From: an uncultured Bacteroidota bacterium
GTDB lineage: Bacteria; Bacteroidota; Bacteroidia; Chitinophagales; Chitinophagaceae
Direction: 5' to 3'
DNA length: 32,286 nucleotides
Assembly: GCA_903926605.1 (NCBI GenBank)
Contig: CAIYJV010000315.1
Span: 1-32,286, forward strand
Program-made: the position numbers and the translations under genes
The notes under the pieces: model-generated
Seen by the model: the letters and a program-made list of their open reading frames with translations, nothing else
Database searches by the model: none
What the model was told of the DNA's origin: nothing
Part shown: one piece after another, positions 5,720 through 24,372 of the stretch
Position numbering within the stretch: the first letter of the stretch is position 1
Layout: the number at the start of each line of letters is the position of its first letter

Positions 5720-6136
5720 ATGATCGCATCGTTATTTAGCACTAAGTCCCGTTTTAAGAAACAAGCAAGGGTCCTGGCACTGCTATGGACCCTGCTTATT
5801 GTTATAGGGTGTTTCGCACCAGCGTCCTCCTTTCCCAAGGTAGATGTACCCCTTGCAGACAAATGGGTTCATTTTGTGCTTTTTGGCGGGTTTACATTTT
5901 TCTGGTCACTGGTTAACCCTGAACTCACCGTAAAGCGATTGGGGCTATTGTTTGTTAAAGCCATTCTTTTCGGCTGTTTTATCGAACTGATGCAGGGACT
6001 ACTTACTTTTCTCGGGCGGAGCATGGAACTGATGGATGCCGTGGCAGATACCATTGGTGCGGCTTTGGGACTCACACTTTTTCTCCTTTGTGCATGGAGC
6101 TTCGGGGAGAAAAATATCCGAACTTCGGTGGAATAA
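5720..6136 (+). CDS. VanZ-like membrane protein
   Basis: A 138-residue integral membrane protein with about four hydrophobic segments: VLALLWTLLIVIGCFA, WVHFVLFGGFTFFWSLV, LLFVKAILFGCFIELMQGLL and the C-terminal IGAALGLTLFLLCAW. The pattern DKWVHF...FIELMQ....R..ELMDAVADTIGAALG is the VanZ-like family hallmark. The function of most such proteins is unknown; the namesake gives low-level teicoplanin resistance. It starts 3 bases after gcvH, an arrangement I recall from other Bacteroidota, and is probably co-transcribed with it. Confidence 0.85.
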   Translation: MIASLFSTKSRFKKQARVLALLWTLLIVIGCFAPASSFPKVDVPLADKWVHFVLFGGFTFFWSLVNPELTVKRLGLLFVKAILFGCFIELMQGLLTFLGRSMELMDAVADTIGAALGLTLFLLCAWSFGEKNIRTSVE

Positions 6137-6153
6137 CCGACAATTGATCTGAG

Positions 6154-6789
6154 ATGATAGAAGGCGTAAAACACATTATTTTCGACCTGGGCGGCGTACT
6201 GCTGAACCTTGATTACCAGCTAACGGAAGACGCTTTTGTAGCAGCAGGTATCACCAACTTCAGGGAAATATATTCCCAGCTGCAGCAGACTCCGGTTTTC
6301 GACCTTTTTGAAACCGGGAAAATAGGGCGGGAGGAATTTATTGCTACCATGCAGGGATTTACGCATACCCCGATCTCGGAATCGCAAATTCTGAATGCAT
6401 GGAATGCGATGTTGCTGAACTTCCCGATACGCCGCCTGCAAATCCTGCAACAACTCCGCAATTACTACGACCTCTATCTGCTTTCGAACACCAACGAGAT
6501 ACACGAAGAAGCATTCAATAAAATTCTGAACAGGGACTTCGGCATGCCCGGCCTTGGTGTGTTTTTCGACCGGGTCTATTTTTCGCACCGGGTGGGGATG
6601 CGCAAGCCACACCGCGAAATATTTGAAATGATCCTGAACAATCATGGCTTACAGGCTGCAGAAACCTTGTTCATAGACGACAGTCCGCAACACATTGTGG
6701 GTGCCAAAGCCGTAGGCCTGCAGACCATTTTTCTGGAAAAAGGCATGACTATTGAGCATGACATTTTTAAGCCTAAGCCGAAGGGCTAG
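6154..6789 (+). CDS. HAD-family phosphatase (YihX-like)
   Basis: A 211-residue HAD hydrolase. Motif I is IIFDLGGVLLNLD with nucleophile D11; the usual second Asp is Gly, as in YihX (alpha-glucose-1-phosphatase). Motif II is LLSNTNEIHE, motif III the Lys in GMRKPHREIF, and motif IV LFIDDSPQHIVGAKAVGL. The segment between motifs I and II is a helical cap. The motifs and layout closely follow YihX, so a sugar phosphate or similar small phosphoester is the likely substrate, but specificity is inference. It lies 17 bases after the VanZ-like gene and probably closes the gcvH operon. Confidence 0.88.
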   Translation: MIEGVKHIIFDLGGVLLNLDYQLTEDAFVAAGITNFREIYSQLQQTPVFDLFETGKIGREEFIATMQGFTHTPISESQILNAWNAMLLNFPIRRLQILQQLRNYYDLYLLSNTNEIHEEAFNKILNRDFGMPGLGVFFDRVYFSHRVGMRKPHREIFEMILNNHGLQAAETLFIDDSPQHIVGAKAVGLQTIFLEKGMTIEHDIFKPKPKG

Positions 6790-6897
6790 TTACAGCACCT
6801 CCGGTTCTTCCAGAGCAAGCAACCTTAGATCTGCAATCCGCCGCAATAAGGCGTTCTGATACAACAGCCTCTCGTAATGCGCATGCTTTTGCATGCT
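6790..6897 (-). CDS. Possible 35-aa small ORF or relic
   Basis: A minus-strand frame starting at an in-frame ATG at about 6894, reading MQKHAHYERLLYQNALLRR and ending ALEEPEVL, just beyond the terminator of the PfkB-family kinase and abutting the HAD stop codon. It is helical and charged. I recognise no family, and the longer frame (to 6972) runs through the terminator hairpin. It may be a chance ORF. Confidence 0.15.
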   Translation of the reverse strand, partial: SMQKHAHYERLLYQNALLRRIADLRLLALEEPEVL

Positions 6898-6923
6898 GCT
6901 TGCTACCCAATAAGCCCTGACAA

Positions 6924-6967
6924 GGACAAAAAAAGATACCTGCGAATGCTTGGCATCCGCAGGTATC
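6924..6967 (-). terminator. Terminator after PfkB-family kinase
   Basis: GATACCTGCG (6935-6944) and CGCAGGTATC (6958-6967) form a 10-bp stem, extended inward by ATGC/GCAT around an A-C mismatch. On the minus strand it is followed directly by TTTTTTTGTCC, so it terminates the kinase transcript. A weaker T-rich stretch on the plus side (to 6983) may make it partly bidirectional for the gcvH operon. Confidence 0.8.
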
Positions 6968-7004
6968 AGCAAACTTTGTTTTTCGTAAAAATTAACCGGA
7001 AAGA

Positions 7005-7928
7005 TTATTTTTTCCGGATCTCGAAGTTGATGAGCGAAACAAATTCGTTGACGCGATTGTCTATATCAGTCACGTTTATTTCCTTGAGTCTGGTGGGACC
7101 GAATTTTTCTACGCAGAAGCTTGCCAGCGCTGACCCTATGATCACCGCGGCTTTCATGTTCTCGAAAGAGAGGTCGCCTGAATAAGCCAGATAACCTATA
7201 AAACCACCTGCAAAAGTGTCTCCCGCACCGGTAGGATCAAATACGTCTTCGAGTGGCAATGCAGGTGCAGAGAATATTTTGTCGTCGTGAAACAGCAATG
7301 CACCATGTTCGCCCTTCTTGATGATCAGGTAGCGAGGTCCCATTTTCTGTATTTTCCGGGCAGCTTTCACCAGCGAATATTCGCCGGTCAGTTCACGGGC
7401 TTCGCTGTCATTCACCAACAGCATATCCACCATGCCAATAGCTTTTTTCAACTCATCCATTGCAATCTCCATCCAGAAATTCATGGTGTCCATTATTACC
7501 AGCTCCGGTTTGTGTTTCAGTTGTTTCAGCACGCTGATCTGTACTGCCGGCGCGAGATTGCCCAACATTACATACTTGCTTTTCTGGTAGCTTTCCGGTA
7601 TCTGCGGATTGAACTGAGCCAGCACATTAAGGTCGGTAATCAGAGAATCGCGCGTGTTCATGTCGAGATGATAACGACCGCTCCAGAAAAAGCTCTTACC
7701 ATCGGGAACAACCTCCACACCTTCGAAGGCCACACCTCTGTCTTTCAGCGCATTTATTTCTTCCTGGGGGAAGTCGCCGCCCACGATAGAAACCTGGTTG
7801 ATAGATTTAGTAAAATTGGAAGCAGCCCATGCTGCGTACGTTGCAGAACCACCGATGATACGGTCTACCTTTCCAAAGGGGGTCTCAAGGGCATCGAATG
7901 CCATGGTACCAACAATAAGTAACGACAT
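7005..7928 (-). CDS. PfkB-family carbohydrate/nucleoside kinase
   Basis: A 307-residue ribokinase-fold kinase. N-terminal MSLLIVGTMAFDALETPFG and IIGGSATYAAWAA give the substrate-binding region; the C-terminal PfkB signature is DVFDPTGAGDTFAGGFIGYL, with the catalytic Asp in GAGD and the anion hole formed by TGAG. Middle segments LLVNDSEARELTGE and RYLIIKKGEHGALL are typical. The family includes ribokinase, adenosine kinase and sugar kinases; the substrate is undetermined. The ATG at 7928 is supported by a promoter whose -7 box (7947-7954) overlaps the longer frame's first codon, a TTG at 7949. Confidence 0.88.
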   Translation of the reverse strand: MSLLIVGTMAFDALETPFGKVDRIIGGSATYAAWAASNFTKSINQVSIVGGDFPQEEINALKDRGVAFEGVEVVPDGKSFFWSGRYHLDMNTRDSLITDLNVLAQFNPQIPESYQKSKYVMLGNLAPAVQISVLKQLKHKPELVIMDTMNFWMEIAMDELKKAIGMVDMLLVNDSEARELTGEYSLVKAARKIQKMGPRYLIIKKGEHGALLFHDDKIFSAPALPLEDVFDPTGAGDTFAGGFIGYLAYSGDLSFENMKAAVIIGSALASFCVEKFGPTRLKEINVTDIDNRVNEFVSLINFEIRKK

Positions 7929-7946
7929 ATATTTTGATTTTTTGTG

Positions 7947-7977
7947 CAAATGTAATCCCAGCCGCCGAAGTTGGCAA
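7947..7977 (-). promoter_or_regulatory. Promoter of the PfkB-family kinase
   Basis: On the minus strand TTG (7977-7975) and TACATTTG (7954-7947) are 20 bases apart, a good Bacteroidota -33/-7 pair. The start site would be about 7940, giving a leader of about a dozen bases before the ATG at 7928. Confidence 0.6.
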
Positions 7978-8034
7978 CATTTAGCCGAATCTTATTTAAA
8001 AAATACAGGCAGACCGTGCCCTGTCACGTATACA

Positions 8035-8445
8035 TCAACCCAACTTTCGTTTCACGACGTGCTTTATTTCACGTACCGCGATCGTGAAGTACCAGAAGGC
8101 GAAAAAACTCTGCAATATCACAAAAGTCAATTCATACAACGGCACTGACATCAATTCCTGTGATGCAAAATTTTTGAGTGTCATTTCGCTCAGATTATGC
8201 CTTATCAGAAAGAAACTGGACATGATTATTACGACCGACGCAAAATACACCCATCGCTCCTTCCTTAACTTATAACGACCACTGACAAACAAATGAAGTA
8301 TCCAACTACCCAGTTGCCAGCTAATGATACCGGGTAAATAGTATTTAAAGAAAAACTTGTAGTTGAAACTAAAAGCAAGCACCGTGAAGATGAAGCTTTG
8401 AACAATGGGGTCCCCAATTTTGAAGTACTTTAGTGCCTTGTTCAT
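8035..8445 (-). CDS. Small integral membrane protein, unknown function
   Basis: A 136-residue protein with about four hydrophobic segments: IVQSFIFTVLAFSFNY, YLPGIISWQLGSWILHLFV, WVYFASVVIIMSSFFLI and LTFVILQSFFAFWYFTIAV, and positively charged ends (KHVVKRKLG). No family recognised. The ATG at 8445 is preferred to the upstream TTG. It is divergent from the nucleotidyltransferase gene and upstream of the kinase gene on the same strand, with about 100 bases containing the kinase promoter between them. Confidence 0.7.
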   Translation of the reverse strand: MNKALKYFKIGDPIVQSFIFTVLAFSFNYKFFFKYYLPGIISWQLGSWILHLFVSGRYKLRKERWVYFASVVIIMSSFFLIRHNLSEMTLKNFASQELMSVPLYELTFVILQSFFAFWYFTIAVREIKHVVKRKLG

Positions 8446-8510
8446 AAGCAAGTATTGATTGAACCGGGTTACAGAATTTTGTAAATTTAATTTTTTTTAT
8501 AGAAAAAGTA

Positions 8511-9227
8511 ATGAAAGCAATGATTTTTGCGGCCGGTTTGGGCACCAGACTGCGTCCACTTACCAACGATCGTCCCAAGGCGCTGGTTGCCCTAAATGGC
8601 AAGACACTCTTAGAACATTGCATTCGCTATTTGCAACGATTTGATATTCATGACATTGTGGTAAATGTTCACCATTTTGCAGATTCAATCACGACTGTAT
8701 TGCACGAAAACAATGGTTTTGGCAGTACCTACAAGATTTCTGACGAAAGTGACGAAGTACTGGAGACCGGGGGCGGTCTGAAAAAAGCCGTACCGCTGTT
8801 TGACGGTTGCGAAGAGATCTTACTGGTGAACGTAGACATTATGACCGATCTGCGGTTGGACAAACTCATCGCAGATCATCGCCGCAGCAATGCTTTAGTG
8901 ACACTTGCAGTGATGAATCGCAATTCGTCGCGACACTTGCTTTTTGACAAGGACAATTGGCTCATGGGCTGGGAAAATACCCAAACAGGGCAACAAAAAA
9001 TATCGCGGGAAACCGAGCTGGTAAAACCCTATGCCTTCAGCGGCATCTCGCTGTTAAAACACGAAACGCTGGACGACATACCCTTTTCGGGAAAATTCTC
9101 ACTAATAGACCTGTACCTGTATCTGGCCCAAAACCCAGTGATTCATGGGCACGATCATTCAGGCGATGTGCTGATAGACGTAGGCAAGCCTGAAAACCTC
9201 GAAAAGGCCGCAACGCTGTTCAAATAG
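8511..9227 (+). CDS. Sugar-1-phosphate nucleotidyltransferase
   Basis: A 238-residue enzyme of the NTP-transferase family, transferring a nucleotidyl group to a sugar-1-phosphate. The nucleotide-binding signature FAAGLGTRLRPLTNDRPKAL runs from residue 6, ETGGGLKKA at 85-93 contacts the base, and D109 in LLVNVDIM binds the metal. The compact form without a C-terminal beta-helix resembles MurNAc-1-phosphate uridylyltransferase (MurU) and mannose-1-phosphate guanylyltransferase-like proteins of COG1208. Which nucleotide and sugar are used cannot be read from the sequence. It is convergent with the ATPase gene at 9233, with only 5 bases between stops. Confidence 0.86.
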   Translation: MKAMIFAAGLGTRLRPLTNDRPKALVALNGKTLLEHCIRYLQRFDIHDIVVNVHHFADSITTVLHENNGFGSTYKISDESDEVLETGGGLKKAVPLFDGCEEILLVNVDIMTDLRLDKLIADHRRSNALVTLAVMNRNSSRHLLFDKDNWLMGWENTQTGQQKISRETELVKPYAFSGISLLKHETLDDIPFSGKFSLIDLYLYLAQNPVIHGHDHSGDVLIDVGKPENLEKAATLFK

Positions 9228-9232
9228 AGTTA

Positions 9233-10744
9233 CTAGTTTTCTTCGTCCTCTATACCAAGGGTCATATTCAGCATACCACCCAACATATCGCCAAAGGAGA
9301 AGCCCCCTTGCTCCACACGTTTCTTGCTTATTACCGAAAATTCGGCAAGCCCATGCAACAGGAACTCCATTAGCAAAACCGTGTCATCACTACTTGCCGA
9401 AGGATGATATTGTTTTACCACGCCGTACAGTCCGTCTACCTGATACAGAAGGTGTGCAAAGGCATCGTTGGTGAGTGCTCCCGGCAGTGTGATCTCGTTA
9501 CCCTTGTCGAACCACGAAATTATTGTTTGGTATGGATTGGGTTTTGACTTGCCATTTTTGGAATCCCGGCCCTTTTTGGAGGTTTGGGGATCTGGAAAAA
9601 ACTGTGTAAAAACGGCGCGTATTGCCAGGCTCATCAACCGGTAGGCCACGTTCAACGCACCCTCCTGTTCGCCTTCGTACACCAGCTCGATTTTTCCGGT
9701 CACAGATGGAATCACCCCGGTAAAATCTGCGATACGCACACTGGTGTGGCGCTCTCCGTGACGTAGCGCGCGGCGTTCCGCTGCGCTCACCAGGTTTTCG
9801 AAGGCAGATATCGTAAGGCGTGCAGACACACCGCTTTTCTGGTCCACAAATTCACTCTTGCGCGCTTCCACGGCAATTTGTTCCACCAGCAGACTGCAAA
9901 GTTCCGGTACCGCGACCCGATCTTTCTGTTCGGGCAAAATATCCGATTCCTGATCGGTAATGGCCCTTGATATTTCCACGGTACGGGGATAGTGGGTTAT
10001 GATCTGACTTTCTATGCGATCTTTCAACGGCGTTACAATGCTGCCCCTGTTGGTATAGTCTTCGGGATTGGCGGTAAACACAAACATGATATCCAGCGGC
10101 AGACGCAATTTAAAGCCCCTGATCTGAATATCGCCCTCCTGCAGAATATTAAAGAGCGCCACTTGAATGCGTGCCTGGAGGTCGGGCAACTCGTTGATGA
10201 CAAAAATACCACGGTGCGATCTGGGTATGATGCCAAAATGCAATGCCTGCTCATCGGCGAAACTCAGGCGCAGGTTGGCAGCCTTTACCGGGTCTATATC
10301 GCCTATCAGGTCAGCTACCGAAACATCGGGCGTGGCCAGTTTCTCGCCATAGCGGGAATCCCGGTGCAGCCAGGCGATGGGAGTTTTATCGCCCATTTCA
10401 TCTATCAGGTTGCGGGCATAATTAGATATGGGGCGCAATGGGTCATCATTTATTTCACTGCCAGCCACAACAGGTATCCATTCGTCCAGCAAATGCACCA
10501 TTTCGCGCGCCATTCGGGTCTTGGCCTGTCCACGCAGACCAAGGAACAGAATATTGTGCCGGGACAACAAGGCACATTCTACATCAGGAATCACCGTATG
10601 CTCGTAACCCAGCACCGACTGAAACGGACTCTTGTGTTCACGAATGCTGGAAAGTAAATTGGCTCTGATTTCTTCTTTGATGCCTTTTGATGTATAACCA
10701 GACGCCTTTAGTTCGCCCAGCGTGTGTATTGAGGTATGATTCAT
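9233..10744 (-). CDS. MoxR / Mg-chelatase-type AAA+ ATPase
   Basis: A 503-residue AAA+ protein. Walker A is GLRGQAKTR at 69-77. The Walker B strand is RGIFVINELPDL at 178-189, with Asn where most AAA+ proteins have Asp, a feature I recall as usual in this subgroup. Sensor 1 is FVFTANPEDY at about 221-230 and the arginine finger lies in PLKDRIESQI. The C-terminal half (250-503) is helical and ends in a Gly/Met-rich stretch, FGDMLGGMLNMTLG. Such ATPases usually work with a von Willebrand A (VWA) protein as remodelling chaperones, but no VWA gene is in the window. The 210 bases to the Crp gene downstream of its promoter side show no other gene. Confidence 0.85.
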   Translation of the reverse strand: MNHTSIHTLGELKASGYTSKGIKEEIRANLLSSIREHKSPFQSVLGYEHTVIPDVECALLSRHNILFLGLRGQAKTRMAREMVHLLDEWIPVVAGSEINDDPLRPISNYARNLIDEMGDKTPIAWLHRDSRYGEKLATPDVSVADLIGDIDPVKAANLRLSFADEQALHFGIIPRSHRGIFVINELPDLQARIQVALFNILQEGDIQIRGFKLRLPLDIMFVFTANPEDYTNRGSIVTPLKDRIESQIITHYPRTVEISRAITDQESDILPEQKDRVAVPELCSLLVEQIAVEARKSEFVDQKSGVSARLTISAFENLVSAAERRALRHGERHTSVRIADFTGVIPSVTGKIELVYEGEQEGALNVAYRLMSLAIRAVFTQFFPDPQTSKKGRDSKNGKSKPNPYQTIISWFDKGNEITLPGALTNDAFAHLLYQVDGLYGVVKQYHPSASSDDTVLLMEFLLHGLAEFSVISKKRVEQGGFSFGDMLGGMLNMTLGIEDEEN

Positions 10745-10954
10745 TGTCTGTGCAGTAAAATTTATGAGTGACTAAAGGTAAGTGAAATGGCACAAACGCT
10801 TGACGATACAGATAGTGGCAAAATTGATAGTGAACGGTGCGGCAATTCAGTACAAGTCTGCCGGGAAGGCATTTGCAATGGTGCAGTTAGCCGTTTGGGC
10901 GGTCTCATCCCTGAAAATTCATTAAATGTGCTACTTGGATTTGAACCGGATTTG

Positions 10955-11533
10955 TTATTTCACGTTGCGAAGTTTATTTCGAATTCGACTCAACGTTTCG
11001 AGCGTAAGCCCAAGGTAGGATGCAATATGCTTCAGAGGTACTCTTTGCAACAGCGACGGGTAGTGTTCCGTGAAAAAAAGATAACGCTCTTCGGCACTTT
11101 GCTTGCGTATCAGAAACAGCCTTAGTTCACTACGGATAAAATACTGTTGCACGATGACTCTGCCTATATAATTGAATTCATCATGTTCTTTGTAAAGCCG
11201 TTCCAGATTATCGAAATGTATCCTGGCCACGGTGGAATCCTCAAGCGCTTGTACATATTCGTAGCTTGGATTGCGCTCAAAAAAACTTTGAACCGATAAA
11301 CACATCTGATGCTCTTCTGCGAAACGAGAGCAAATTTCCTCCCCATCTTTAATATAGTACATCCGCAATGCACCCTTGATCACGACAAACAAATAATCGG
11401 CTCGTTGGCCTTCCCGAAGCAAGACCTGATTTTTAGGAATCTCCAGAATCTCGAGGTAACGTTCTACATCGGCGACAATCTTGTCGCTCACCGGGCGGAT
11501 ATTGTTGAAGTAGGCAAATAGAAATTCAAACAT
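10955..11533 (-). CDS. Crp/Fnr-family transcription regulator
   Basis: A 192-residue regulator with an N-terminal cyclic-nucleotide-binding-type beta-barrel (VLLREGQRADYLFVVIKGAL) and a short C-terminal helix-turn-helix (LKHIASYLGLTLETLSRIRNKL). The family phosphate-binding cassette (GE.....R.A) is absent, so cAMP is unlikely to be its ligand. The ATG at 11533 gives the usual length and the typical start MFEFLFAYFNNI; an ATG at 11686 would add 51 residues of unlike composition. It lies 210 bases upstream of the ATPase gene on the same strand and is divergent from the ACP phosphodiesterase gene. Confidence 0.88.
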   Translation of the reverse strand: MFEFLFAYFNNIRPVSDKIVADVERYLEILEIPKNQVLLREGQRADYLFVVIKGALRMYYIKDGEEICSRFAEEHQMCLSVQSFFERNPSYEYVQALEDSTVARIHFDNLERLYKEHDEFNYIGRVIVQQYFIRSELRLFLIRKQSAEERYLFFTEHYPSLLQRVPLKHIASYLGLTLETLSRIRNKLRNVK

Positions 11534-11766
11534 CGGGCGATCAGGTTTTGGATCCGGAAAATTCTGCAAACACGAATATATAAATATTTTACACAAATCG
11601 CTACTTGAAAAACAATAAAGTACGGATTCATATACAGATTCCGGTACCCTATAACACAGCCCTCTGGTATCCAACCCAATTTGCATTTATGCTTCTCCGG
11701 AGTGTTACTTGCAGTCCTGGTTTATTGAACGCCTAAGTGCGATGGCTACTGCTTAGCTTAAGCAAG

Positions 11767-11774
11767 TACCTTTG
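11767..11774 (+). promoter_or_regulatory. Putative -7 box for the ACP phosphodiesterase gene
   Basis: TACCTTTG matches the TAnnTTTG -7 consensus exactly, 20 bases before the ATG at 11795, a plausible leader length. No clear -33 TTG is seen at the right spacing. The rest of the 261-base divergent gap with the Crp gene shows nothing else. Confidence 0.4.
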
Positions 11775-11794
11775 CTCCTATCAAAGCCACGTTC

Positions 11795-12388
11795 ATGAAC
11801 TACCTCGGACACGCATACCTTTCTTTTAACGATCCCGAATTGCTCGTAGGGAATATGGCAGGTGATTATGTAAAGGGCCTGGTAGCACTCGAAAAATTTC
11901 CTGCAAGAGTGAAAGACGGATATTTGCTGCACCGGAAAATAGATCATTATGCCGATATGCACCCAGCCAACCAAAGGGCCAAACTAATTTTCAGGGGCGA
12001 TTTCGGACTGTATTCAGGGGCTATCATCGATACGATCTATGACCATTTTCTGGCCAATGACGCTAAAATATTTCCTACCGAAACCGCATTGCACCAGTTC
12101 ACACAAGAGGTTTATATAATGTTGGATAGCAAGGTGTACCTGCTGCCTGAAAAATTTGCGCAGTACTACCCAAAAATGAAAGAACAAAACTGGCTTTTTC
12201 ACTACCGTAGCGTGAAGGGTGCCGAACGATCGCTGCAAGGACTGGCCAGACGAGCCATACACATGCCACCCATAGAACCGGCGTACATGGCATTTATCAC
12301 CAATTATTACTACCTTAACCAGTGTTATTTTGACTTTATTGACGACCTCGTAAAATATGTGCGCACAGAAATATCGGCATTAAAATAG
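11795..12388 (+). CDS. ACP phosphodiesterase (AcpH-like)
   Basis: A 197-residue protein of the AcpH family, which removes the 4'-phosphopantetheine arm from acyl carrier protein. The family pattern is followed from the start: MNYLGHAYLS, LLVGNMAGDYVKGL, GYLLHRKIDHYADMHP, and IIDTIYDHFLANDA. Length is close to the 193 residues of the E. coli protein. It is cytoplasmic. It stands alone between a divergent Crp gene and the serine hydrolase operon. Bacteroidota members are rarely tested, so activity is by homology. Confidence 0.85.
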   Translation: MNYLGHAYLSFNDPELLVGNMAGDYVKGLVALEKFPARVKDGYLLHRKIDHYADMHPANQRAKLIFRGDFGLYSGAIIDTIYDHFLANDAKIFPTETALHQFTQEVYIMLDSKVYLLPEKFAQYYPKMKEQNWLFHYRSVKGAERSLQGLARRAIHMPPIEPAYMAFITNYYYLNQCYFDFIDDLVKYVRTEISALK

Positions 12389-12467
12389 CCCAAGATTGAA
12401 AAATCTGTATTTTCTTTCGCAGTTTTTTACGATTTTTGCCCTGATACGAATAGTGTAATTTTTTTTG

Positions 12468-13685
12468 ATGCGTAAAGAAATCATGGGAAGGCCGGTCTCC
12501 TTTTTTATAACAACATTCTTTTTATGTATTTTTTTTATTGCGTGCAGATCCAACACGGAATCGGTATCCGCACGCACCAATAATTCGGGGTTTCATGAAA
12601 CTCCGATAAAGGCACTGCCGCTACCCCTGATTTTTGATACGCTGAGTGCGCAAACGCGGGAAATAACCCGCCAACTGGACCAGTTTTATGCTACACAAGT
12701 AAAAGCAGGATTTAATGGTAGCGTTCTGATAGGCTATCAGGGCCGGATAATCTATGAACGCTTTTATGGCTATGCCAACCGGGAGGCCCGCATAACACTG
12801 GACCATAATAGCTCCGGGCAGCTGGCATCGGTATCTAAAACATTTACAGGCGCCGCCGTACTTTACCTATGGGAACATAAATATCTGGACATAAGCGAAC
12901 CGGTTCAAAAATACCTGCCTGAATTCCCCTACCCCAATATTACCGTCAAGATGCTGCTGAACCACCGGTCCGGTCTGGCGGACTATTCGCATTGGTATCT
13001 TGCGCACACCGATGATTTCAGCACCCCTATCACCAATGCCGTCATGCTTGCCCAAATGGCAAAATACAAACCACTGCTTGAGTTTAAGCCCAACACCCGG
13101 TTCAAGTATTGCAACACCAACTACGCACTGCTGGCACTGATTGTGGAACGAGTTACTGAAATGACATTTCCTGAGTTCATGAACAAGTATTTCTTTGGCC
13201 CACTGGGGATGGAACATACCTTTATTTTCGACCCCAAAGCAGGTTTGCCGTCCTATGCCACAATAAGCTACGACCGTAACTGGAAAAGAGAGAACGTGAT
13301 GTTTGCCGATGGCGTGTACGGCGACAAAAGTATTTACAGTACCACAGAAGATATGTACCGGTGGGATCAGTCGTTTTACCGCACACAGCTACTGAGCAAC
13401 GAAACGATAGAGATGGCTTACGGACCGTGTTCGTTCGAAAAACCGGGCGTAAAAAATTACGGTTTGGGTTGGCGTATGCTTTGTTTCCCCAATGGCAACA
13501 AAGTAATATACCACAACGGCTGGTGGCACGGTAACAATACGTCTTTCTACCGCTTTATAAAAGACAACCTTACGATCGTGGTATTGGGCAACCGGTTCAA
13601 CAACGGTATTTACAGACAGGCCCCCAAGATCTTCAGTATTCTGAAGGGGGTACCCGTGCAAAAAGGATTTGACTCCGAAGACTAA
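12468..13685 (+). CDS. Lipoprotein serine hydrolase, beta-lactamase/DD-peptidase family
   Basis: A 405-residue protein with an N-terminal signal ending in FFLCIFFIACRS; C26 may be lipidated, although the lipobox is not ideal. The class C beta-lactamase-like catalytic set is present: S121-V-S-K124 (ASVSKTFTG), Y214-C-N216 (KYCNTNYALL) and H349-N-G351 (IYHNGWWHG). Family members act as DD-peptidases, esterases or amide hydrolases in the envelope; true beta-lactamase activity is less likely. It heads a same-strand run with short gaps (23, 15, 14 and 54 bases): thioesterase, acetyltransferase, Crp regulator and SRPBCC protein. The ATG at 12468 follows a T-rich leader. Confidence 0.88.
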   Translation: MRKEIMGRPVSFFITTFFLCIFFIACRSNTESVSARTNNSGFHETPIKALPLPLIFDTLSAQTREITRQLDQFYATQVKAGFNGSVLIGYQGRIIYERFYGYANREARITLDHNSSGQLASVSKTFTGAAVLYLWEHKYLDISEPVQKYLPEFPYPNITVKMLLNHRSGLADYSHWYLAHTDDFSTPITNAVMLAQMAKYKPLLEFKPNTRFKYCNTNYALLALIVERVTEMTFPEFMNKYFFGPLGMEHTFIFDPKAGLPSYATISYDRNWKRENVMFADGVYGDKSIYSTTEDMYRWDQSFYRTQLLSNETIEMAYGPCSFEKPGVKNYGLGWRMLCFPNGNKVIYHNGWWHGNNTSFYRFIKDNLTIVVLGNRFNNGIYRQAPKIFSILKGVPVQKGFDSED

Positions 13686-16986: not shown

Positions 16987-19656
16987 ATGAAGTTTTGTAC
17001 ACTTGTTGCCATGTGCTTACTTGCCGCAACCGGAATGCAGGCGCAACCTATTCTGCAAGGCATGGGAACCAGAGTGAAACTTGAGGACGCCGTGGCACGG
17101 TATAAAGAAAACCACCGGGATCGTAATGTTTCCAGAGAAGACGACAAACCCAATACCGGCAAATCGTTTGACTTGCGTCAGCTGATGAAGGGAGAGCAGG
17201 AACACGATTACCGCTTCAACCGCTGGCTGTGGTACTGGCAGCGCCACACCGACCAAAATGGGTATCTGGTTTCGCCCGCCGCGACCTGGAAGGGCATGCA
17301 AAACACACAATACAAAAGAGATAGCCACTATAGTGAGCGAACCACCTCAAGTAGCCTGAACTGGACATTCCAGGGGCCAGATTCATCGGGGGCATTCACG
17401 GGTGACGGCGCAGGTTCAGGAGTTGGAAGGATCAATGTGATCGCTTTTCACCCCTCGGACTCTAATATATACATTATTGGGTCGCCCGGTGGTGGCGCAT
17501 GGCGCACCACGAATGATGGACATAACTGGACCTGCCTGACCGATATGCTTCCTAACCTGAGCATAGGTGATATTAAATACAATCCAATGAATGCAAATAC
17601 GATCTATTTGTGTTCAGGTGACCGCGATGGTGGTGACTACCCCGGAATAGGAGTGTTGAAATCTTATAATGGCGGAACAAGCTGGCAAATGACCGGCATG
17701 CTCTGGCCGGATTCACTCTACAATACAGCAAACTGCATACTCGTCAATCCCCTTGATTCCAACTCGTTGATACTGGGTACTACGAATGGCCTTTTTCGCT
17801 CCTTTGACGGAGGCACAAGCTGGTCGCTGCACAGCGCCGGCAACTTCATTCAAATAGTTTACCGCCCAGGTGACACCGGCATCGTATATGCAGGCACTTC
17901 TAACTATAGCGCATCTGCACAGGTGTACCGTAGTGCCGATGGCGGCAATAGCTGGACTCAGATAACCAGTTTTACCGATGTAGACAGGGTATCTGTTGCC
18001 GTAACTCCAGCCAGCGTGAACATGGTAATGGCCTTGTGCTCGGCTTCAAGCGGCTCTAACGCCGATGGGCTGGAGGGCATTTACAAATCAATTGATGCCG
18101 GGCTTTCTTTTTCAATTCTTTATTCAGGAGGCTGCACAGGTGTTCACAATATGTTGGGCTGGAGCGCCAACGCATCGGATTGTGGCGGGCAGGGTTGGTA
18201 CGATCTGCCAATAGCCATAAGCCCAGTCAATGCCAGTGTGGTGTATATAGGCGGCGTGAACGCCTGGAAGTCTACCGACGGCGGCACAACCTGGACCATT
18301 TTGAACCAGTGGACACAGGATGCTCCCGGAGTAAAAGTGATTCATGCAGACAAACATTGTATGACGTTCAATCCCCTGTGCCCTGTAAGATTTTTTGAAA
18401 CCAACGATGGTGGCGTTTACAGCGCCTACAACCCTACCAGTTCGGGTACGTGGCGCAATCTGACCAACCGAATGGGCATCACAGAATTTTACGGAGTAGG
18501 CGTGAGTCCAATTGCACCCTTTGTTATTGCTGGCGCTCAAGACGTGGGTACTAAACTAATCCGGCCTGGACTTTATGAAGAGGCCGATGGTGGCGATGGC
18601 ATGTGGTCGCAACTGGATTACACAGACAGTACTGTGGGCTATTCCTCATCAGAATACGGGTACATTGATATCATAGACCCTACAGCGTCACAACCAGACC
18701 TGACTGCAAATGACATTTCAATGAACATATCGGGAGGCAGCGTGGAAGGATCCGGCTCATGGGTAACCCCTTTTATGATAGAGCCTGGTTGCCACACTTG
18801 TCTGGTTGCCGGATACAATGCCGTATTTAAGTCTGGCAATCAGGGAGGCTCCTGGACGGCTCTTTCACCCGACTTCACCAATACCCTTTCCAAAGTAGCA
18901 CTTACAGAGGCAGACTCCAATACTATTTATGTGTCTGAAGACTATTACGGCACTCCGCTGCACTATACCCGGAACAATGGGACTTCCTGGACCGACCTAC
19001 TGGTACCGTATTCGTCTGTTCATGTTTCGGATGTGGTTGCGGACCCCAGGAATGCAGATCACATCTGGGTTACATTCAGCGGCTATGGCGCCAACCACAT
19101 TTCAGAGTGGACCAGCACCGGTGGTTGGCATCCATTCGACGCAGGCATACCAGATATGCCTGTGCATTGCATTGCAATCAATAAACTAACACGCGAAATG
19201 TATGCCGGCACAGAAACTGGTGTGTATTACAGGGATAGTACCATGACATCCTGGATACCTAATTCTAATGGCATACCGGCAGTCGCAGTCATTGATCTGG
19301 AAATAAACTATGGCGCGGGAGAGATTTGGGCAGCCACCTTTGGCAGGAGTCTGTGGAGCGCCATGCTGCCCACGTTAGTGCCCACCATCGCACCTTTTTC
19401 CAGCGACGGAATTAGTGTGGCGCCCAATCCCACCACAGGCAGTTTTGTGGTAACACTGAATCGTATTAGCGACCCTTTAGTTAGCATGCAGCTAACCGAC
19501 GTAACAGGACGTACGGCATGGTCCCAGGAAAATATGACCAATACCGGTGCCGGTATCACTATTACAGCCAACGGCCTTCGGGCGGGTATTTACATACTCG
19601 AAGTGTTTGCCAAAGGAAATCTGGCCGGACGGCAACAAATTGTTATAGCGCGCTAG
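16987..19656 (+). CDS. Secreted BNR/sortilin-like repeat protein with T9SS type A sorting domain
   Basis: An 889-residue secreted protein: signal peptide (MKFCTLVAMCLLAATGMQAQ), a propeller-like body with about nine BNR/Asp-box-type repeats (for example WRTTNDGHNW, FRSFDGGTSW, YRSADGGNSW, WKSTDGGTTW, FKSGNQGGSW), and a C-terminal sorting domain from about 807 (VAPNPTTGSFVVTL...GIYILEV...IVIAR). T9SS would carry it over the outer membrane and the domain would be removed or anchored. The repeats resemble VPS10/sialidase-type propellers, but sialidase catalytic residues cannot be claimed. Possible roles are carbohydrate or protein binding. It has its own promoter and a strong terminator. Confidence 0.9.
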   Translation: MKFCTLVAMCLLAATGMQAQPILQGMGTRVKLEDAVARYKENHRDRNVSREDDKPNTGKSFDLRQLMKGEQEHDYRFNRWLWYWQRHTDQNGYLVSPAATWKGMQNTQYKRDSHYSERTTSSSLNWTFQGPDSSGAFTGDGAGSGVGRINVIAFHPSDSNIYIIGSPGGGAWRTTNDGHNWTCLTDMLPNLSIGDIKYNPMNANTIYLCSGDRDGGDYPGIGVLKSYNGGTSWQMTGMLWPDSLYNTANCILVNPLDSNSLILGTTNGLFRSFDGGTSWSLHSAGNFIQIVYRPGDTGIVYAGTSNYSASAQVYRSADGGNSWTQITSFTDVDRVSVAVTPASVNMVMALCSASSGSNADGLEGIYKSIDAGLSFSILYSGGCTGVHNMLGWSANASDCGGQGWYDLPIAISPVNASVVYIGGVNAWKSTDGGTTWTILNQWTQDAPGVKVIHADKHCMTFNPLCPVRFFETNDGGVYSAYNPTSSGTWRNLTNRMGITEFYGVGVSPIAPFVIAGAQDVGTKLIRPGLYEEADGGDGMWSQLDYTDSTVGYSSSEYGYIDIIDPTASQPDLTANDISMNISGGSVEGSGSWVTPFMIEPGCHTCLVAGYNAVFKSGNQGGSWTALSPDFTNTLSKVALTEADSNTIYVSEDYYGTPLHYTRNNGTSWTDLLVPYSSVHVSDVVADPRNADHIWVTFSGYGANHISEWTSTGGWHPFDAGIPDMPVHCIAINKLTREMYAGTETGVYYRDSTMTSWIPNSNGIPAVAVIDLEINYGAGEIWAATFGRSLWSAMLPTLVPTIAPFSSDGISVAPNPTTGSFVVTLNRISDPLVSMQLTDVTGRTAWSQENMTNTGAGITITANGLRAGIYILEVFAKGNLAGRQQIVIAR

Positions 19657-19760: not shown

Positions 19761-20366
19761 ATGGATTGTCCTTTGTTCCGTTCGAAACTAAATGAAGAAG
19801 TAAATGAATTTGGCATTTCGCGCTGCTTCGACGCGGGTACTACCATACTGGAAATTGATAGTTATATCAAGGTACTGCCGATCGTGAAAAAAGGCAGTGT
19901 AAAGGTGATTCGTACAGACCAGGACTATAAAGAAATACTGTTGTATTATATCAAGCCGGGAGAGAGCTGCATCATGTCTTTTCTTTCCGGTATACACGCA
20001 AAGAAGAGCAAGGTAAGAGCCGTGATAGAAGAAGACGCCGAACTGCTACTGATACCTATAGACAAAGCAGGAGCCTGGCTTGCGGAATATCCCGAATGGA
20101 GCGATTTTATCTTCAACCTTTATGAAACCCGGTTTGAAGAACTACTGGAGACTGTGAACTCACTGGCTTTTCAAAAACTGGACGAACGGCTTTTGCAACT
20201 TCTGAATCAGAAAGCGGTGCTATACCACACGCGTGAACTACCGGTAACCCATCAGCAACTTGCCGACGAAATGGCTACCACCCGCGAAGTAGTGAGCCGC
20301 ATATTGAAACAAATGGAAAATGCTGGGGTTGTAAGGCTGTCGCGAAACAAAATTTTGCTTGTGTGA
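19761..20366 (+). CDS. Crp/Fnr-family transcription regulator
   Basis: A 201-residue regulator, unlike the other two in the window: it has a full winged helix-turn-helix (THQQLADEMATTREVVSRIL KQ, then NAGVVRLSRNKILLV). The sensor part includes IVKKGSVKVIRTDQDYKEIL and PGESCIMSFLSGIHAKK. Cys residues at positions 3, 22 and in GESC are not arranged as an FNR iron-sulfur cluster. The family often controls redox, sulfur or oxygen responses; here a DUF2892 protein follows on the same strand and a DsbD-like protein is convergent, which suits a thiol or sulfide link but does not prove it. Confidence 0.88.
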   Translation: MDCPLFRSKLNEEVNEFGISRCFDAGTTILEIDSYIKVLPIVKKGSVKVIRTDQDYKEILLYYIKPGESCIMSFLSGIHAKKSKVRAVIEEDAELLLIPIDKAGAWLAEYPEWSDFIFNLYETRFEELLETVNSLAFQKLDERLLQLLNQKAVLYHTRELPVTHQQLADEMATTREVVSRILKQMENAGVVRLSRNKILLV

Positions 20367-20398
20367 CATTTGGTACAGAACACGCATTTGCAGGGTTC

Positions 20399-20406
20399 TA
20401 CATTTG
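20399..20406 (+). promoter_or_regulatory. Putative -7 box for the DUF2892 gene
   Basis: TACATTTG is an exact TAnnTTTG match in the 94-base gap after the Crp gene, 55 bases before the DUF2892 ATG. The nearest TTTG upstream is 26 bases away, longer than usual, so this is tentative. Confidence 0.3.
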
Positions 20407-20460
20407 TGAAATACCGGATGAAACAACCGGCTGATCGTTCACAAAAAACCAATCCAACAA

Positions 20461-20673
20461 ATGAAAAAGAACATGGGAGGCGCAGACCGCGCCATTCGCA
20501 TCCTGATCGCGGTAGTAGCTGCGGCACTTTACCTGACACACACAGTAACAGGCACATTTGGCATTGTATTGCTGGCTGTTGCTGGCATATTTGTACTCAC
20601 CAGCCTCATTAGTTTTTGTCCATTGTATACTTTGTTCGGTATAAAGACTTGCAAAGTACAGGACTCCAAATAG
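20461..20673 (+). CDS. DUF2892 (YgaP-like) small membrane protein
   Basis: A 70-residue protein starting MKKNMGGADRAIRILIAVVA, typical of DUF2892, with two hydrophobic helices and a conserved Cys-bearing end, FCPLYTLFGIKTCK. The domain is found alone or fused to rhodanese, as in E. coli YgaP, and often near sulfur or thiol genes; the molecular role is unclear. It follows a Crp/Fnr regulator on the same strand. Confidence 0.85.
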   Translation: MKKNMGGADRAIRILIAVVAAALYLTHTVTGTFGIVLLAVAGIFVLTSLISFCPLYTLFGIKTCKVQDSK

Positions 20674-20742: not shown

Positions 20743-21861
20743 CTATCTGGATTGTGGCAGGAAAGCCTGAACATGATACAAGGGTGCACCCCAAAGGCCG
20801 GGCAGCAGGTAAACAGAAAACGACAAAAACGCTATGGCCAGTACCAATCTGGAAATAGACACATAGTCCTGCCCGTACACGTTCTGAATGTGCAAATAAT
20901 CGTTAGACAGACGTACATAACCCAACATGTACAAGCCCATCATTCCCGCCAAGCACATCACCATAACAATAAAAATATCGTTGTCAATCAGATTCCAGTC
21001 TAGCGCAATATCGGCATTGGAAAGAAATTTGAGACACAACAACAGCGAAAAAAAACCAAGCAGAACCTTTACATGATTCAGCCAGGTAATAGATTTAGAA
21101 ATCAGGTTGATAAAAACGGGAAATACAAAGGGAAGAACAAAACCAAACGAGAAGCCCAGCATCCCGGTCAACGGCCCTAAAAATCCGCCTTTCCCGGCAA
21201 ACAAAAGCACCAGCCCGGCTATGGGCCCGGTAGAAGATATCGTTAATACAGGCAGTGACAAAGCCATAAAAAATATACCCTTAAAACTGTCCAGTCCGGC
21301 TTTTGAATTTATTTTCTGGGCCCATTTCACCGGCAGGTTTATTTCAAACGCGCCCAGAAAGGAAAGGCCCAGCATAAGGAATATCCTACAGAAAATAAGA
21401 TTGAACAGCCAGTGGTCGGCAAACTGATAGAATCCTGTGGTGGTGACGATCACAGACAGAATGAGACCCAGCGCCAGAAATATGGAGATGAGCGACAAAG
21501 CATAGAAAATGTTGTTGCGCAACACATGTCCCCTATTTTTGCTGATCACGGAAATATAGTTGAGCGTAAGCGGCAGGATGGCATACACATAGGGCGTAAA
21601 GACCGCCAGGATACCGAGAAAAAACGATTCAAAAAACAACCACAATAGCGGTTTCTGGCGGTCTTTGAAATGAGCATTTGCCCAACGTGAAAAAGGCCCG
21701 TTTCCCGCTTTTAAAACCAATATATGGCCCTGTGCGTGTGTACTAATAGAAACGCCAGATTGGGTTGCCACCGAACGCGATGTTGCAAAACTTGTTGCAT
21801 GCAGGAACAAAGAGCCCAGGACAAATACAAACACATAAAATGACCTGACAAATACTCCCAT
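20743..21861 (-). CDS. DsbD/CcdA-type membrane protein lacking the redox cysteines
   Basis: A 372-residue protein with a signal-like N-terminus (MGVFVRSFYVFVFVLGSLFL) and then the eight-helix DsbD/CcdA transmembrane domain from about 71. It follows Bacteroidota DsbD closely: the FTP..YAILPLT loop, FLGAFEINLPVKW, KAGLDSFKGIFFMAL, GGFLGPLTGMLGFS, WLNHVKVLLGFFSLLLCLKF, LSNADI and YLLPGLWGAPL. Yet the catalytic cysteine of TPCVFPMIP is Tyr91 (TPYVYAILP) and the partner cysteine of SCTGP is Ser210 (SSTGP). The C-terminal thioredoxin domain is absent. The only cysteines, 158, 276 and 303, are elsewhere in membrane helices. It cannot carry electrons in the usual way. The ATG at 21861 is preferred to TTG at 21867. 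Confidence 0.85.
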   Translation of the reverse strand: MGVFVRSFYVFVFVLGSLFLHATSFATSRSVATQSGVSISTHAQGHILVLKAGNGPFSRWANAHFKDRQKPLLWLFFESFFLGILAVFTPYVYAILPLTLNYISVISKNRGHVLRNNIFYALSLISIFLALGLILSVIVTTTGFYQFADHWLFNLIFCRIFLMLGLSFLGAFEINLPVKWAQKINSKAGLDSFKGIFFMALSLPVLTISSTGPIAGLVLLFAGKGGFLGPLTGMLGFSFGFVLPFVFPVFINLISKSITWLNHVKVLLGFFSLLLCLKFLSNADIALDWNLIDNDIFIVMVMCLAGMMGLYMLGYVRLSNDYLHIQNVYGQDYVSISRLVLAIAFLSFSVYLLPGLWGAPLYHVQAFLPQSR

Positions 21862-21967: not shown

Positions 21968-24127
21968 TCAGGCATCTTCGGTAGTAGAATTATTTACGAA
22001 GTACATACTTAGTTCCCCTTTGTTCTTGGCCTGTATTTTACCCCTGAACTCGCAACTGAATTTATCCTTGACCCGTTGGTAGGTGTCTTCGCTGATGTTT
22101 ACCCTGCCGGGCATACTATTTTGCTCCATACGGGCGGCGGTATTTACCGTATCACCCCAGATATCGTAAGCGAATTTTTTTACCCCCACAATCCCGGCTA
22201 CTACGCTACCGCTATGCGCGCCAATGCGTACCTCAAAAGTCATATCGCCCATCAGGCGCTTGCGCTCCAGTTGGAAATCACGAATTTCCAACGCAGCCTT
22301 CACAATTTTTTCGGCGTGGTTAGGATCTCCCATTGGCAGACCAGATACGGCCAGGTAGGCATCGCCCACCGTCTTTATCTTTTCAATGTTGTACTTGGTC
22401 ATGATGTGGTCAAAACCCTTGAAGCAAGCATCCAGTTCATTTACCAGTTGCTGCGGCGTCATCCGCTCAGACACCTTGGTAAAGCCCACAAAATCTGAGA
22501 AGAACACCGTTACTTCCTGGAAATACTTGGCTTCCGCACTGCCCTTGTCCTTCAATTCTTCGGCCACTTCCGCAGGAAGGATGTTCAGCAGCAATTCGTC
22601 CGATCTTTTCTTTTCCTTGGTGATGATCTTGTTAGACTTGTTCTGCTTCATGTTACTACGCACCACCAAACCGATGATGAATAGCAACAAGGCCATACCC
22701 ACATACAAGAACTTCGCTTCGTTCTTGTTTTTCTCGATGGTCAGCAAATTGAGTTTTGTTTCCTTGTCGAGAATCTCCTTGTGTGCTTCGGTCTCCTGCT
22801 TGAGCAATTGTTTTTTGGCGTCCTGAGCACTCAGTGTATCCTTTGCGGCAGCAAACAACAAATAGCTTTCGTAGGCGTTTTTGTAGTCACCTTTATGTTT
22901 GTATGCTTCAGACAGGTACTGGCTGAATTCTTTTACGCTTTCCTTGTCTTCCTGCTCCTTGGCCATTGTAAGTGCCTTGGTCAGGTACTCAATAGCCTTG
23001 GAAAGATTGGCCGATTTGGACGCAGTGACCAGCGATCCGGTTTTCAGCGTTTTCCCGGTATCATTATACACGGCCAGATAGGCTTCTCCAATATTGCCGA
23101 GTGTGGCACAGATAGAACTTTTTATGTCCAGTTCCTGCAGCATCGTCAATGCACGGAAGTAGTTTTCCAGCGCTTTTTGGTAGTCGCGGTTGAAAGTACT
23201 TACCTGCCCAATTCCGGAAAGAGTGGCAATCTCACCCTCTTTAAAATCGCTCTCCTTGTAAAGCGCCAATGACTTTTCATAGTAGATAGATGCACTATCG
23301 TATTGCTTCTGAGCAATGTAAAGCCCAGCAATTGAAAACAAACAATTCCCGGCTGCATTAGAAATTCGGTCATCTTTCTTTTCCGCCAACATGGACTCAA
23401 AAATCCCCAACGCACTCATCATGTACTGCCGGGCCTTGACATAGTCTCCCTGCATGGAACACACATTGCCAATATTGAGGCTTGTGTTGGCTATACCCAA
23501 CTTGTCTGACTTTTTTTGCTGCAAAAGTTTCAGCGCCTGATAATGGTAAGAGATCGCGTTTTTATATTCTCCTTTATCGAAGCAAATATTGGCCAGTTCG
23601 GTGTATTCTTCGGCAATTTTGCTGGTGTCGTTTTCGCCCTCAAAAAGTTTCAAAGCAAGCGTATGAAATATTACTGCGCTGTCTTTATCATCAAGTACAC
23701 TATGATAAATAACTCCAATACCGTCATAAGCTTTCGCTACAAGTGAATTCTTGTTTTTAAAATCGTCTGGCAATTCTTTATAGCACGACAGCGCCCTTTG
23801 GTAAAAACCTAAAGCCGTTTTGTATTCTGATTTTTTTTTGTAACACCCGGCAAACTCCATGTTCAACTTACCTTTCAGCTCAACGGCGTTGATTTTTTCT
23901 GCAAGTTTGTATCCTTCGGTAGCGATAATTATTGCGGTATCCGGATTTATTTCCTTGAAGTTTTCAGCTAAGCGCCAGTATAGATCTACCCTTGTGGTAT
24001 CCGCCCTTATTACTTTTATCTGCCGGGAAATTGAATCTATGACGCGCTTTTCATTTTGAGCAAAAAGCCCGGAGGCCTGCAACAACAACAAGACCAAAAT
24101 GAAAAGGCCACGACCAAAATCACGCAT
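21968..24127 (-). CDS. TPR-sensor class III adenylate cyclase
   Basis: A 719-residue protein: signal peptide or anchor (MRDFGRGLFILVLLLLQASG), a TPR-rich region of about 420 residues in the periplasm, one transmembrane helix at about 473-490 (FLYVGMALLLFIIGLVV), a short helical linker and a cytoplasmic class III cyclase domain from about 538. Catalytic residues are present: metal-binding D545 (FFSDFVGF) and D589 (VGDAYLAVSG), the Lys in EKIKTVGD and Asp in FAYDIWGD (adenine-specific pair), and N and R in NTAARME. An adenylate cyclase is therefore likely active. The ATG at 24127 gives a normal signal sequence; an ATG at 24184 would add 19 residues. It lies downstream of pfkA on the same strand. 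Confidence 0.88.
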   Translation of the reverse strand: MRDFGRGLFILVLLLLQASGLFAQNEKRVIDSISRQIKVIRADTTRVDLYWRLAENFKEINPDTAIIIATEGYKLAEKINAVELKGKLNMEFAGCYKKKSEYKTALGFYQRALSCYKELPDDFKNKNSLVAKAYDGIGVIYHSVLDDKDSAVIFHTLALKLFEGENDTSKIAEEYTELANICFDKGEYKNAISYHYQALKLLQQKKSDKLGIANTSLNIGNVCSMQGDYVKARQYMMSALGIFESMLAEKKDDRISNAAGNCLFSIAGLYIAQKQYDSASIYYEKSLALYKESDFKEGEIATLSGIGQVSTFNRDYQKALENYFRALTMLQELDIKSSICATLGNIGEAYLAVYNDTGKTLKTGSLVTASKSANLSKAIEYLTKALTMAKEQEDKESVKEFSQYLSEAYKHKGDYKNAYESYLLFAAAKDTLSAQDAKKQLLKQETEAHKEILDKETKLNLLTIEKNKNEAKFLYVGMALLLFIIGLVVRSNMKQNKSNKIITKEKKRSDELLLNILPAEVAEELKDKGSAEAKYFQEVTVFFSDFVGFTKVSERMTPQQLVNELDACFKGFDHIMTKYNIEKIKTVGDAYLAVSGLPMGDPNHAEKIVKAALEIRDFQLERKRLMGDMTFEVRIGAHSGSVVAGIVGVKKFAYDIWGDTVNTAARMEQNSMPGRVNISEDTYQRVKDKFSCEFRGKIQAKNKGELSMYFVNNSTTEDA

Positions 24128-24372
24128 CGCGCCCACTCCACCTATGTGGACTAACTTTTGGGGATGGGACGAGCGAAAAATCATAGTAAAAAAATATCTC
24201 TACCAACGTCGTTGACCTTGGACTAGCGGTAAAAATAAACAATTTTTTATCGAATTTCAGGAAATCATTATCCACGATTTTTGGGGCAGAAGTGGTTAGA
24301 CAATCACAGCAGTCCCTGCCCCAATATAAAATACCGTTTATTTGTTTTTTATTTTAATAAAAGACTGGTAAC

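Follow-up and report, generated by a model that had tools for sequence, protein, structure and literature searches.

A membrane protein derived from DsbD but lacking both cysteines of the thiol relay forms a distinct clade within one bacterial family, carries invariant residues of its own, and is repeatedly encoded beside signaling genes. We describe it from the window, by which we mean the whole 32,286-nt stretch of DNA analyzed here. Our leading reading, held with slightly less than even confidence and resting on thiol loss and gene linkage as they appear in sequence, is that these proteins are non-redox, DsbD-derived membrane sensors or transporter-sensors ('transceptors') serving TPR-type receptors. 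In textbook accounts, DsbD and CcdA carry electrons by means of thiols. The existence of a clade in which the fold is intact but the chemistry is gone distinguishes a 'fold that moves' from a 'fold that carries electrons', and the linkage of this clade to receptors offers a specific, testable example of how a carrier may become a sensor.

The gene lies on the reverse strand of the window and encodes a product of 372 aa with a hydrophobic, signal-like N-terminus, a linker of ~40 residues, and then the DsbD membrane domain. The gene and its two substituted relay positions are as follows:

20743 to 21861, reverse strand: Cys-less DsbD_TM paralogue, ATG at 21861, TAG at 20743-20745, 372 aa plus stop
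21589 to 21591, reverse strand: Tyr91 (TAT), in TM1, the first relay Cys in all 132 other domains of the alignment
21232 to 21234, reverse strand: Ser210 (TCT), in TM4, the second relay Cys in all 132 other domains of the alignment

A sequence-only reading of this region had described a protein that keeps the DsbD fold, replaces both relay cysteines, and has no thioredoxin domain, and our analysis agrees on each point. The fold blocks GAFEINLP, GGFLGPLTGMLGFS, and LPGLWGAPL are all found in the translation. On the coding strand, the two codons read TAT and TCT, and the encoded Tyr91 and Ser210 align with both cysteines (FTPCIF, SFSCTGP) of the full-length DsbD of the same genome. In a Pfam scan of the window protein (E ≤ 0.001), DsbD_TM (PF02683) was the sole match, covering residues 74-280 with 38.6 bits against a cut-off of 27.1; neither DsbD_N nor a thioredoxin domain was detected.

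An AlphaFold2 model, built from a 48-row alignment and of middling confidence (pLDDT 70.5, pTM 0.65), predicts eight membrane helices at residues 72-106 (broken at 88-89), 110-138, 151-168, 193-225, 229-255, 258-287, 294-312, and 336-357. This model was used for helix boundaries only. Structural matches to it were weak: Foldseek returned no PDB entry with E under 0.001, a VIA structure comparison scored CcdA (5vkv) at Z 5.0, the same level as unrelated helical proteins, and no clear transporter match to this middling-confidence model was found. At the sequence level, CcdA was the only PDB match to the window protein, and a weak one (E 0.054 with the single sequence, 0.78 with a profile).

The possibility of a normal DsbD elsewhere in the genome, raised in the same reading, is realized on contig C222, where a 739-aa frame retains both cysteines and, by Pfam, comprises DsbD_N, the membrane domain, and a thioredoxin domain. 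The window protein is 46% identical to this DsbD over 337 residues. A Pfam family search of the window's assembly, which is 97% complete, found just these two DsbD_TM proteins. The same combination of a full DsbD (frames of 711-740 aa) and a short Cys-less copy is present in all four genomes of the window's genus, g1. At two other loci (L237 in G829 and L238 in G812), the contig that carries the Cys-less gene also holds full-length dsbD, ~9 and ~11 kb away, respectively, an arrangement that may be left over from the original duplication. Three genomes (G020, G143, and G148) each contain two long DsbD-like frames; both G020 copies that we read keep the cysteines.

In total, we read 20 Cys-less proteins from four genera of one family. 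Copies occur in 4/4 genomes of g1, 11/35 of g119, and 4/11 of g111, with the g119 and g111 counts taken from genus-wide searches; the single member from g68 came from a sample of 394 genomes of the family. When that sample was searched with a profile of the g1 copies, six more short copies were recovered from three other genera, and a wider profile added, among the matches listed, a partial member at a contig end. The number of members is a lower bound, because the matches listed for the family reach ~1e-96 and more lie beyond. In a class-wide sample of 395 genomes searched at E ≤ 1e-95, a threshold that weaker members would escape, there was no short match outside the family. Among at least 80 loci listed from public genomes, one was Cys-less (L063), and this was G003's own. 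The closest ordinary DsbDs among the public matches listed were from Taibaiella, Flavipsychrobacter, and other Chitinophagaceae or Bacteroidetes, mostly in metagenome assemblies.

The suggestion that a clade might share the Tyr/Ser pair is borne out, with Phe or Thr as variants. The three other g1 genomes carry the same Tyr/Ser pair in proteins that are 43-56% identical to the window protein, and all 20 members lack both cysteines. Position 91 is Tyr in 14/20 and Phe in 6/20, and position 210 is Ser in 19/20 and Thr in the remaining one; both cysteines are kept in 132/132 of the other DsbD membrane domains compared. Intermediates are absent from this set: among 143 distinct membrane domains, counted before the last nine members were added, 132 have both cysteines, 11 have neither, and none has just one. 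Two trees, both built after the trait columns had been taken out of the alignment, unite the Cys-less proteins in a single clade (bootstrap 100, SH-aLRT 100). Inside it, the g119 and g111 members group by genus, and the four g1 members fall into two pairs whose union is unsupported. Because several branches are long, we regard the inner order of the clade as unsure.

Further positions distinguish the clade in the alignment, with the helix of Arg159 taken from the model:

21385 to 21387, reverse strand: Arg159, in TM3, present in 20/20 Cys-less proteins versus 0/132 others
21370 to 21372, reverse strand: Leu164, in TM3, present in 20/20 Cys-less proteins, Phe in 132/132 others
21250 to 21252, reverse strand: Pro204, in TM4, present in 20/20 Cys-less proteins versus 0/132 others
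21046 to 21048, reverse strand: Ser272, in TM6, Glu in 132/132 others and in 0/20 Cys-less proteins

Two prolines that flank the first cysteine site, Pro90 and Pro97, are kept in all 152 proteins (20/20 and 132/132). Column counts across the 20 members rule out hidden replacement cysteines: no cysteine column rises above 7/20 (six at position 158 and seven at position 305), and three members are cysteine-free altogether. With both relay cysteines gone and no substitute column above this level, the known thiol relay is excluded; judged by their sequences, the Cys-less proteins fail the defining chemical test for DsbD. The Arg159/Pro204/Leu164 set and the lost Glu272 also mark residues of interest in ordinary DsbD.

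Purifying selection is evident across four pairs of Cys-less genes, with dN/dS of 0.027-0.144 (Nei-Gojobori). The ratio is 0.144 for the G002/G003 pair (0.072 within the membrane core) and 0.121, 0.069, and 0.027 for three g119 pairs; synonymous sites are saturated between G000 and G001, hence no ratio is given for them. In the same G002/G003 comparison, the full DsbD gives 0.063, the neighboring cyclase described below 0.103, and the housekeeping gene rlmN 0.020. With 0.144 versus 0.063 for DsbD, the Cys-less protein is the faster-evolving of the two, yet it is clearly maintained.

The 20 frames contain no internal stop, and 18 of them span ATG to stop. The G393 member is cut by a contig end, and the start of the G808 member (L230) is unsure, there being no ATG before TM1; its sequence was taken from stop to stop. 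Apparent internal stops in some members were their own terminal stops, overrun by the profile match by 1-2 codons. Sequencing error is rejected because the three further g1 genomes have the identical Tyr/Ser pair. The idea of a decaying duplicate or a sequencing artefact could draw on branches longer than in most full-length DsbDs and on a patchy presence in two genera, but the same substitutions recur across separate assemblies in frames that remain open, and the low dN/dS (0.03-0.14), the invariant residues, and the conserved linkage all oppose it, leaving it with almost no weight in our assessment. The earlier argument against a decaying pseudogene is thereby strengthened.

Directly upstream of the Cys-less gene in the window lies a putative receptor gene, identified by Pfam and by its matches within the genus:

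21968 to 24184, reverse strand: TPR-cyclase, 738 aa, directly upstream, 106 nt from the Cys-less gene

This protein consists of a hydrophobic N-terminus, a TPR region, one membrane helix (~490-508), and a class III nucleotidyl cyclase domain with the motifs FSDFVGFT, IKTVGDAY, and YDIWGDTVNTAARM. We take the lysine and aspartate in these motifs to indicate a probable adenylate rather than a guanylate cyclase. The other three g1 genomes have a cyclase 25-33 nt upstream of the Cys-less gene; the G001 contig ends inside it, so that its C-terminal part alone is visible and the TPR part unseen. Matches to the window cyclase number 6 in the window's genome and 7-10 in each of the other three, some of them to the TPR part alone. 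In each other g1 genome it is the best match that adjoins the Cys-less gene, and only one match per genome is linked. In the part of the window that was compared (14-30 kb), no gene apart from the cyclase/Cys-less pair matches the other loci; the pair therefore persists in three different surroundings, G002 and G003 sharing theirs. Membrane cyclases are expanded in g1, and on contig C60 of G022 (6134-13624) four TPR-cyclase matches stand in a row on one strand.

On the opposite side of the Cys-less gene, a Crp/Fnr-type regulator and a YgaP-like (DUF2892) membrane protein are encoded side by side on the forward strand (19761-20673). Upstream of the Crp gene, also on the forward strand (16987-19656), a protein of 889 aa is encoded that has both a match of the sortilin/Vps10 type and a Por secretion tail. 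Synteny with the Crp and DUF2892 genes, to which attention had been drawn at the outset, did not hold up: neither gene matches anything at the nine other loci compared, three of them from the same genus and one (G001) showing one side only, and we rejected both as partners. The conserved neighbor is the TPR-cyclase, on the side facing away from them.

At 10/11 loci of g119, the Cys-less gene has a single-domain response regulator (126-130 aa) as its closest neighbor on one flank. Five loci have this receiver upstream in the same orientation as the Cys-less gene, at a distance of 21-84 nt; at five it is divergent and is followed by a hybrid histidine kinase (830-888 aa) and then by a second receiver. 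Pfam identifies HisKA, HATPase_c, and receiver domains in three of the five kinases, and the remaining two share 63-72% identity with one of these. The kinases share the plan of the cyclase, in which a region before a single clear membrane helix is followed by output domains. Furthermore, the N-termini of four kinases match the cyclase TPR region in BLAST at 27-32% identity over 115-132 aa. It is this BLAST match that we denote by 'TPR-like' for the kinases, as a Pfam scan of three kinase N-termini at E up to 5 yielded no named TPR family. A cassette of a long receiver-containing frame beside a short receiver frame seems to be recurrent in g119; G245 has two on contig C1 (375140-378609, at L164, and 702288-703477), of which only one adjoins the Cys-less gene.

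The remaining genera are more varied. At the g68 locus, a TPR protein with hydrophobic N-terminal segments is encoded 28 nt upstream. The g111 loci and one g119 locus have other neighbors, including MBOAT, LptE, cation efflux, START-like, and Nramp proteins. In all, 5/19 loci are without an adjacent cyclase, kinase, or receiver (three in g111, one in g68, and one in g119).

To place these neighborhoods on a common scale, immediate neighbors were called with a longest-frame caller at 19 of the 20 Cys-less loci, the truncated G393 member (L167) being excluded. The 38 neighbors include 10 receivers and 4 cyclases, so that 14/19 loci show the conserved linkage expected of our working class, 'accessory of TPR-type signaling'. 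At L230, the next gene, a receiver, was substituted by hand for a 94-aa frame lying antisense to the Cys-less gene; without this correction, the counts are 9/38 receivers and 13/19 linked loci. The control comprised 44 of 45 loci drawn at random from long ordinary dsbD loci, mostly in other genera (L105, with a miscalled frame, was excluded). Among its 88 neighbors, receiver and cyclase families are not among the 25 most frequent of 90 families; because the lowest count in those 25 is 2, each occurs at most twice in 88, and at most 4/44 control loci have an adjacent receiver or cyclase. Fisher tests against 4/44 give 6e-7 for 14/19 and 4e-6 for 13/19, values that are descriptive in that related loci are treated as independent.

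When receivers, kinases, and cyclases were used as queries, tblastn against 79 ordinary loci returned one kinase match ~4 kb away and nothing else, and 12 ordinary dsbD loci of the family with short flanks had no match to these queries. Two g119 genomes contain 72 and 76 receiver domains, from which, assuming ~4,000 genes, a receiver neighbor would arise by chance in ~4% of cases. Because the loci share descent, we count two clear cases of association, the g1 cyclase and the g119 receiver/kinase, or perhaps four if the two g119 layouts and the two g1 pairs had separate origins.

Together, these findings suggest the following course of events. A dsbD gene was most likely duplicated within one group of the family. 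The copy would have kept the membrane domain and hinge prolines but lost the periplasmic domains, the relay cysteines, and the membrane glutamate; an arginine, a leucine, and a proline, all now invariant in the clade, would have been acquired. In the present-day protein, a ligand or solute may occupy a site close to where the cysteines once were, between TM1 and TM4, and its binding would shift the DsbD-type moving helices. This movement would then be read by the TPR-type single-pass receptor encoded next to it, a contact to which the linkage points. The output of the receptor would come in g1 from a cyclase, probably making cAMP, and in g119 from a hybrid histidine kinase acting through single-domain receivers. 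In the Cys-less clade the prolines are kept, Tyr/Phe and Ser/Thr occupy the cysteine sites, and an arginine has been added in TM3. Read most simply, this would mean that the moving part stayed and the cargo changed from electrons to a ligand or solute, possibly with transport. The more specific proposal, that the Cys-free sensor works with TPR-type single-pass receptors through the two outputs of class III cyclase and hybrid histidine kinase relay, we advance more tentatively than the sensor role itself.

Several observations count against a sensor. Five of the 19 loci have no signaling neighbor and the linked loci are related by descent; adjacency of genes does not prove that their products make contact; neither a cargo nor a ligand is indicated; only one of the 6-10 cyclase matches per g1 genome is linked; the structural model is of middling confidence, with no clear transporter match; and the protein evolves faster than DsbD. 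As for the original suggestion of a repurposed transporter or a regulatory paralogue, the regulatory part fits the repeated signaling linkage and the 'repurposed' idea survives the tests made, with a transporter of non-thiol cargo being possible.

The alternative that we take most seriously, while considering it rather unlikely, is that the protein simply works as a secondary transporter or ion carrier of the DsbD/LysE type. Such a carrier would move a small solute through a binding site that includes Arg159 and the Tyr/Ser pair, and the adjacent signaling genes would merely control or respond to it, a relationship to which we attach the same rather low likelihood. The kept hinge prolines and the clade-specific charged residue in a membrane helix are consistent with this, as is the grouping of DsbD with solute exporters in the LysE superfamily (PMC4608589). 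It would also account for the unlinked loci, two of which adjoin metal transporters (cation efflux at L162, Nramp at L234). Yet no cargo is indicated for a carrier either, and no transport or metabolic neighbor family recurs as receivers and cyclases do. Proteins that neither bind a ligand nor move, and act through protein-protein contact alone as a static accessory subunit or chaperone of membrane receptors (a 'pseudo-carrier'), would equally suit the linkage to receptors, the short form without soluble domains, and the elevated dN/dS relative to full DsbD (0.144 versus 0.063). The clade residues, however, surround the former active site in TM1, TM3, and TM4, where a role in a substrate site or moving part seems likelier, and we consider a purely static role improbable.

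An indirect redox role, in which the protein pairs with full-length DsbD or handles a non-thiol electron carrier such as a quinone, has still less to recommend it. Tyrosine could in principle be redox active, the protein is DsbD-derived and co-occurs with full-length DsbD in the four g1 genomes, and two neighbors match a TPR model named for the cytochrome c maturation protein CcmH, one of many TPR models matched. Against this, the first position is Phe in 6/20 members, no other cysteine column exceeds 7/20, and the Glu of all 132 others is lost. The 25 most frequent of 50 neighbor families likewise include no thioredoxin, DsbA, or cytochrome family.

In the literature searched, largely without subscription papers, we found no function for Cys-less DsbD proteins and no DsbD-fold signaling partner; neither the Cys-less clade as delimited here, with the residues invariant in it, nor its repeated link to signaling genes was found there, and both appear to be new. 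The closest known relative is the transmembrane (beta) domain of DsbD, as in the C222 protein, with which the Cys-less proteins share membrane domain length, hinge prolines, and the SFLGAFE and PG-WGAPL blocks. They differ from DsbD in having no relay cysteines, DsbD_N, thioredoxin domain, or TM6 Glu, and in their own Arg159, Leu164, and Pro204. Like CcdA, known from a Thermus NMR structure (5vkv), the window protein is a short DsbD_TM protein without soluble domains. In contrast to it, CcdA uses a cysteine pair, according to a review (PMC7329351), and has six helices there, compared with the eight predicted for the window protein. The same review presents CcdA, the minimal member, as a putative elevator whose TM1 and TM4 would move the cysteines between sides, and calls for confirmation (PMC7329351).

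Looking further afield, DsbD has been placed on statistical grounds among the distant kin of the LysE superfamily exporters (LysE, RhtB, TerC, NicO, and others) in a published study (PMC4608589). These are carriers without a thiol relay. For the Cys-less proteins, a membrane domain of the inverted-repeat DsbD/LysE type would follow from DsbD homology together with that study, the model having given weak structural matches; their closest kin in all searches are DsbDs. Membrane domains shared between bacterial transporters and receptors are known for the S-component/5TMR fold (PMC11109136), and SpdC, an Abi-domain protein associated with WalKR, is reported to control histidine kinase activity (PMC5854430). 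Both parallel the proposed role, as a membrane domain common to transport and reception in one case and a membrane regulator of a kinase in the other, but have other folds. Set beside them, a Cys-free DsbD-fold sensor, if true, would constitute a new class of bacterial transceptor or receptor co-protein.
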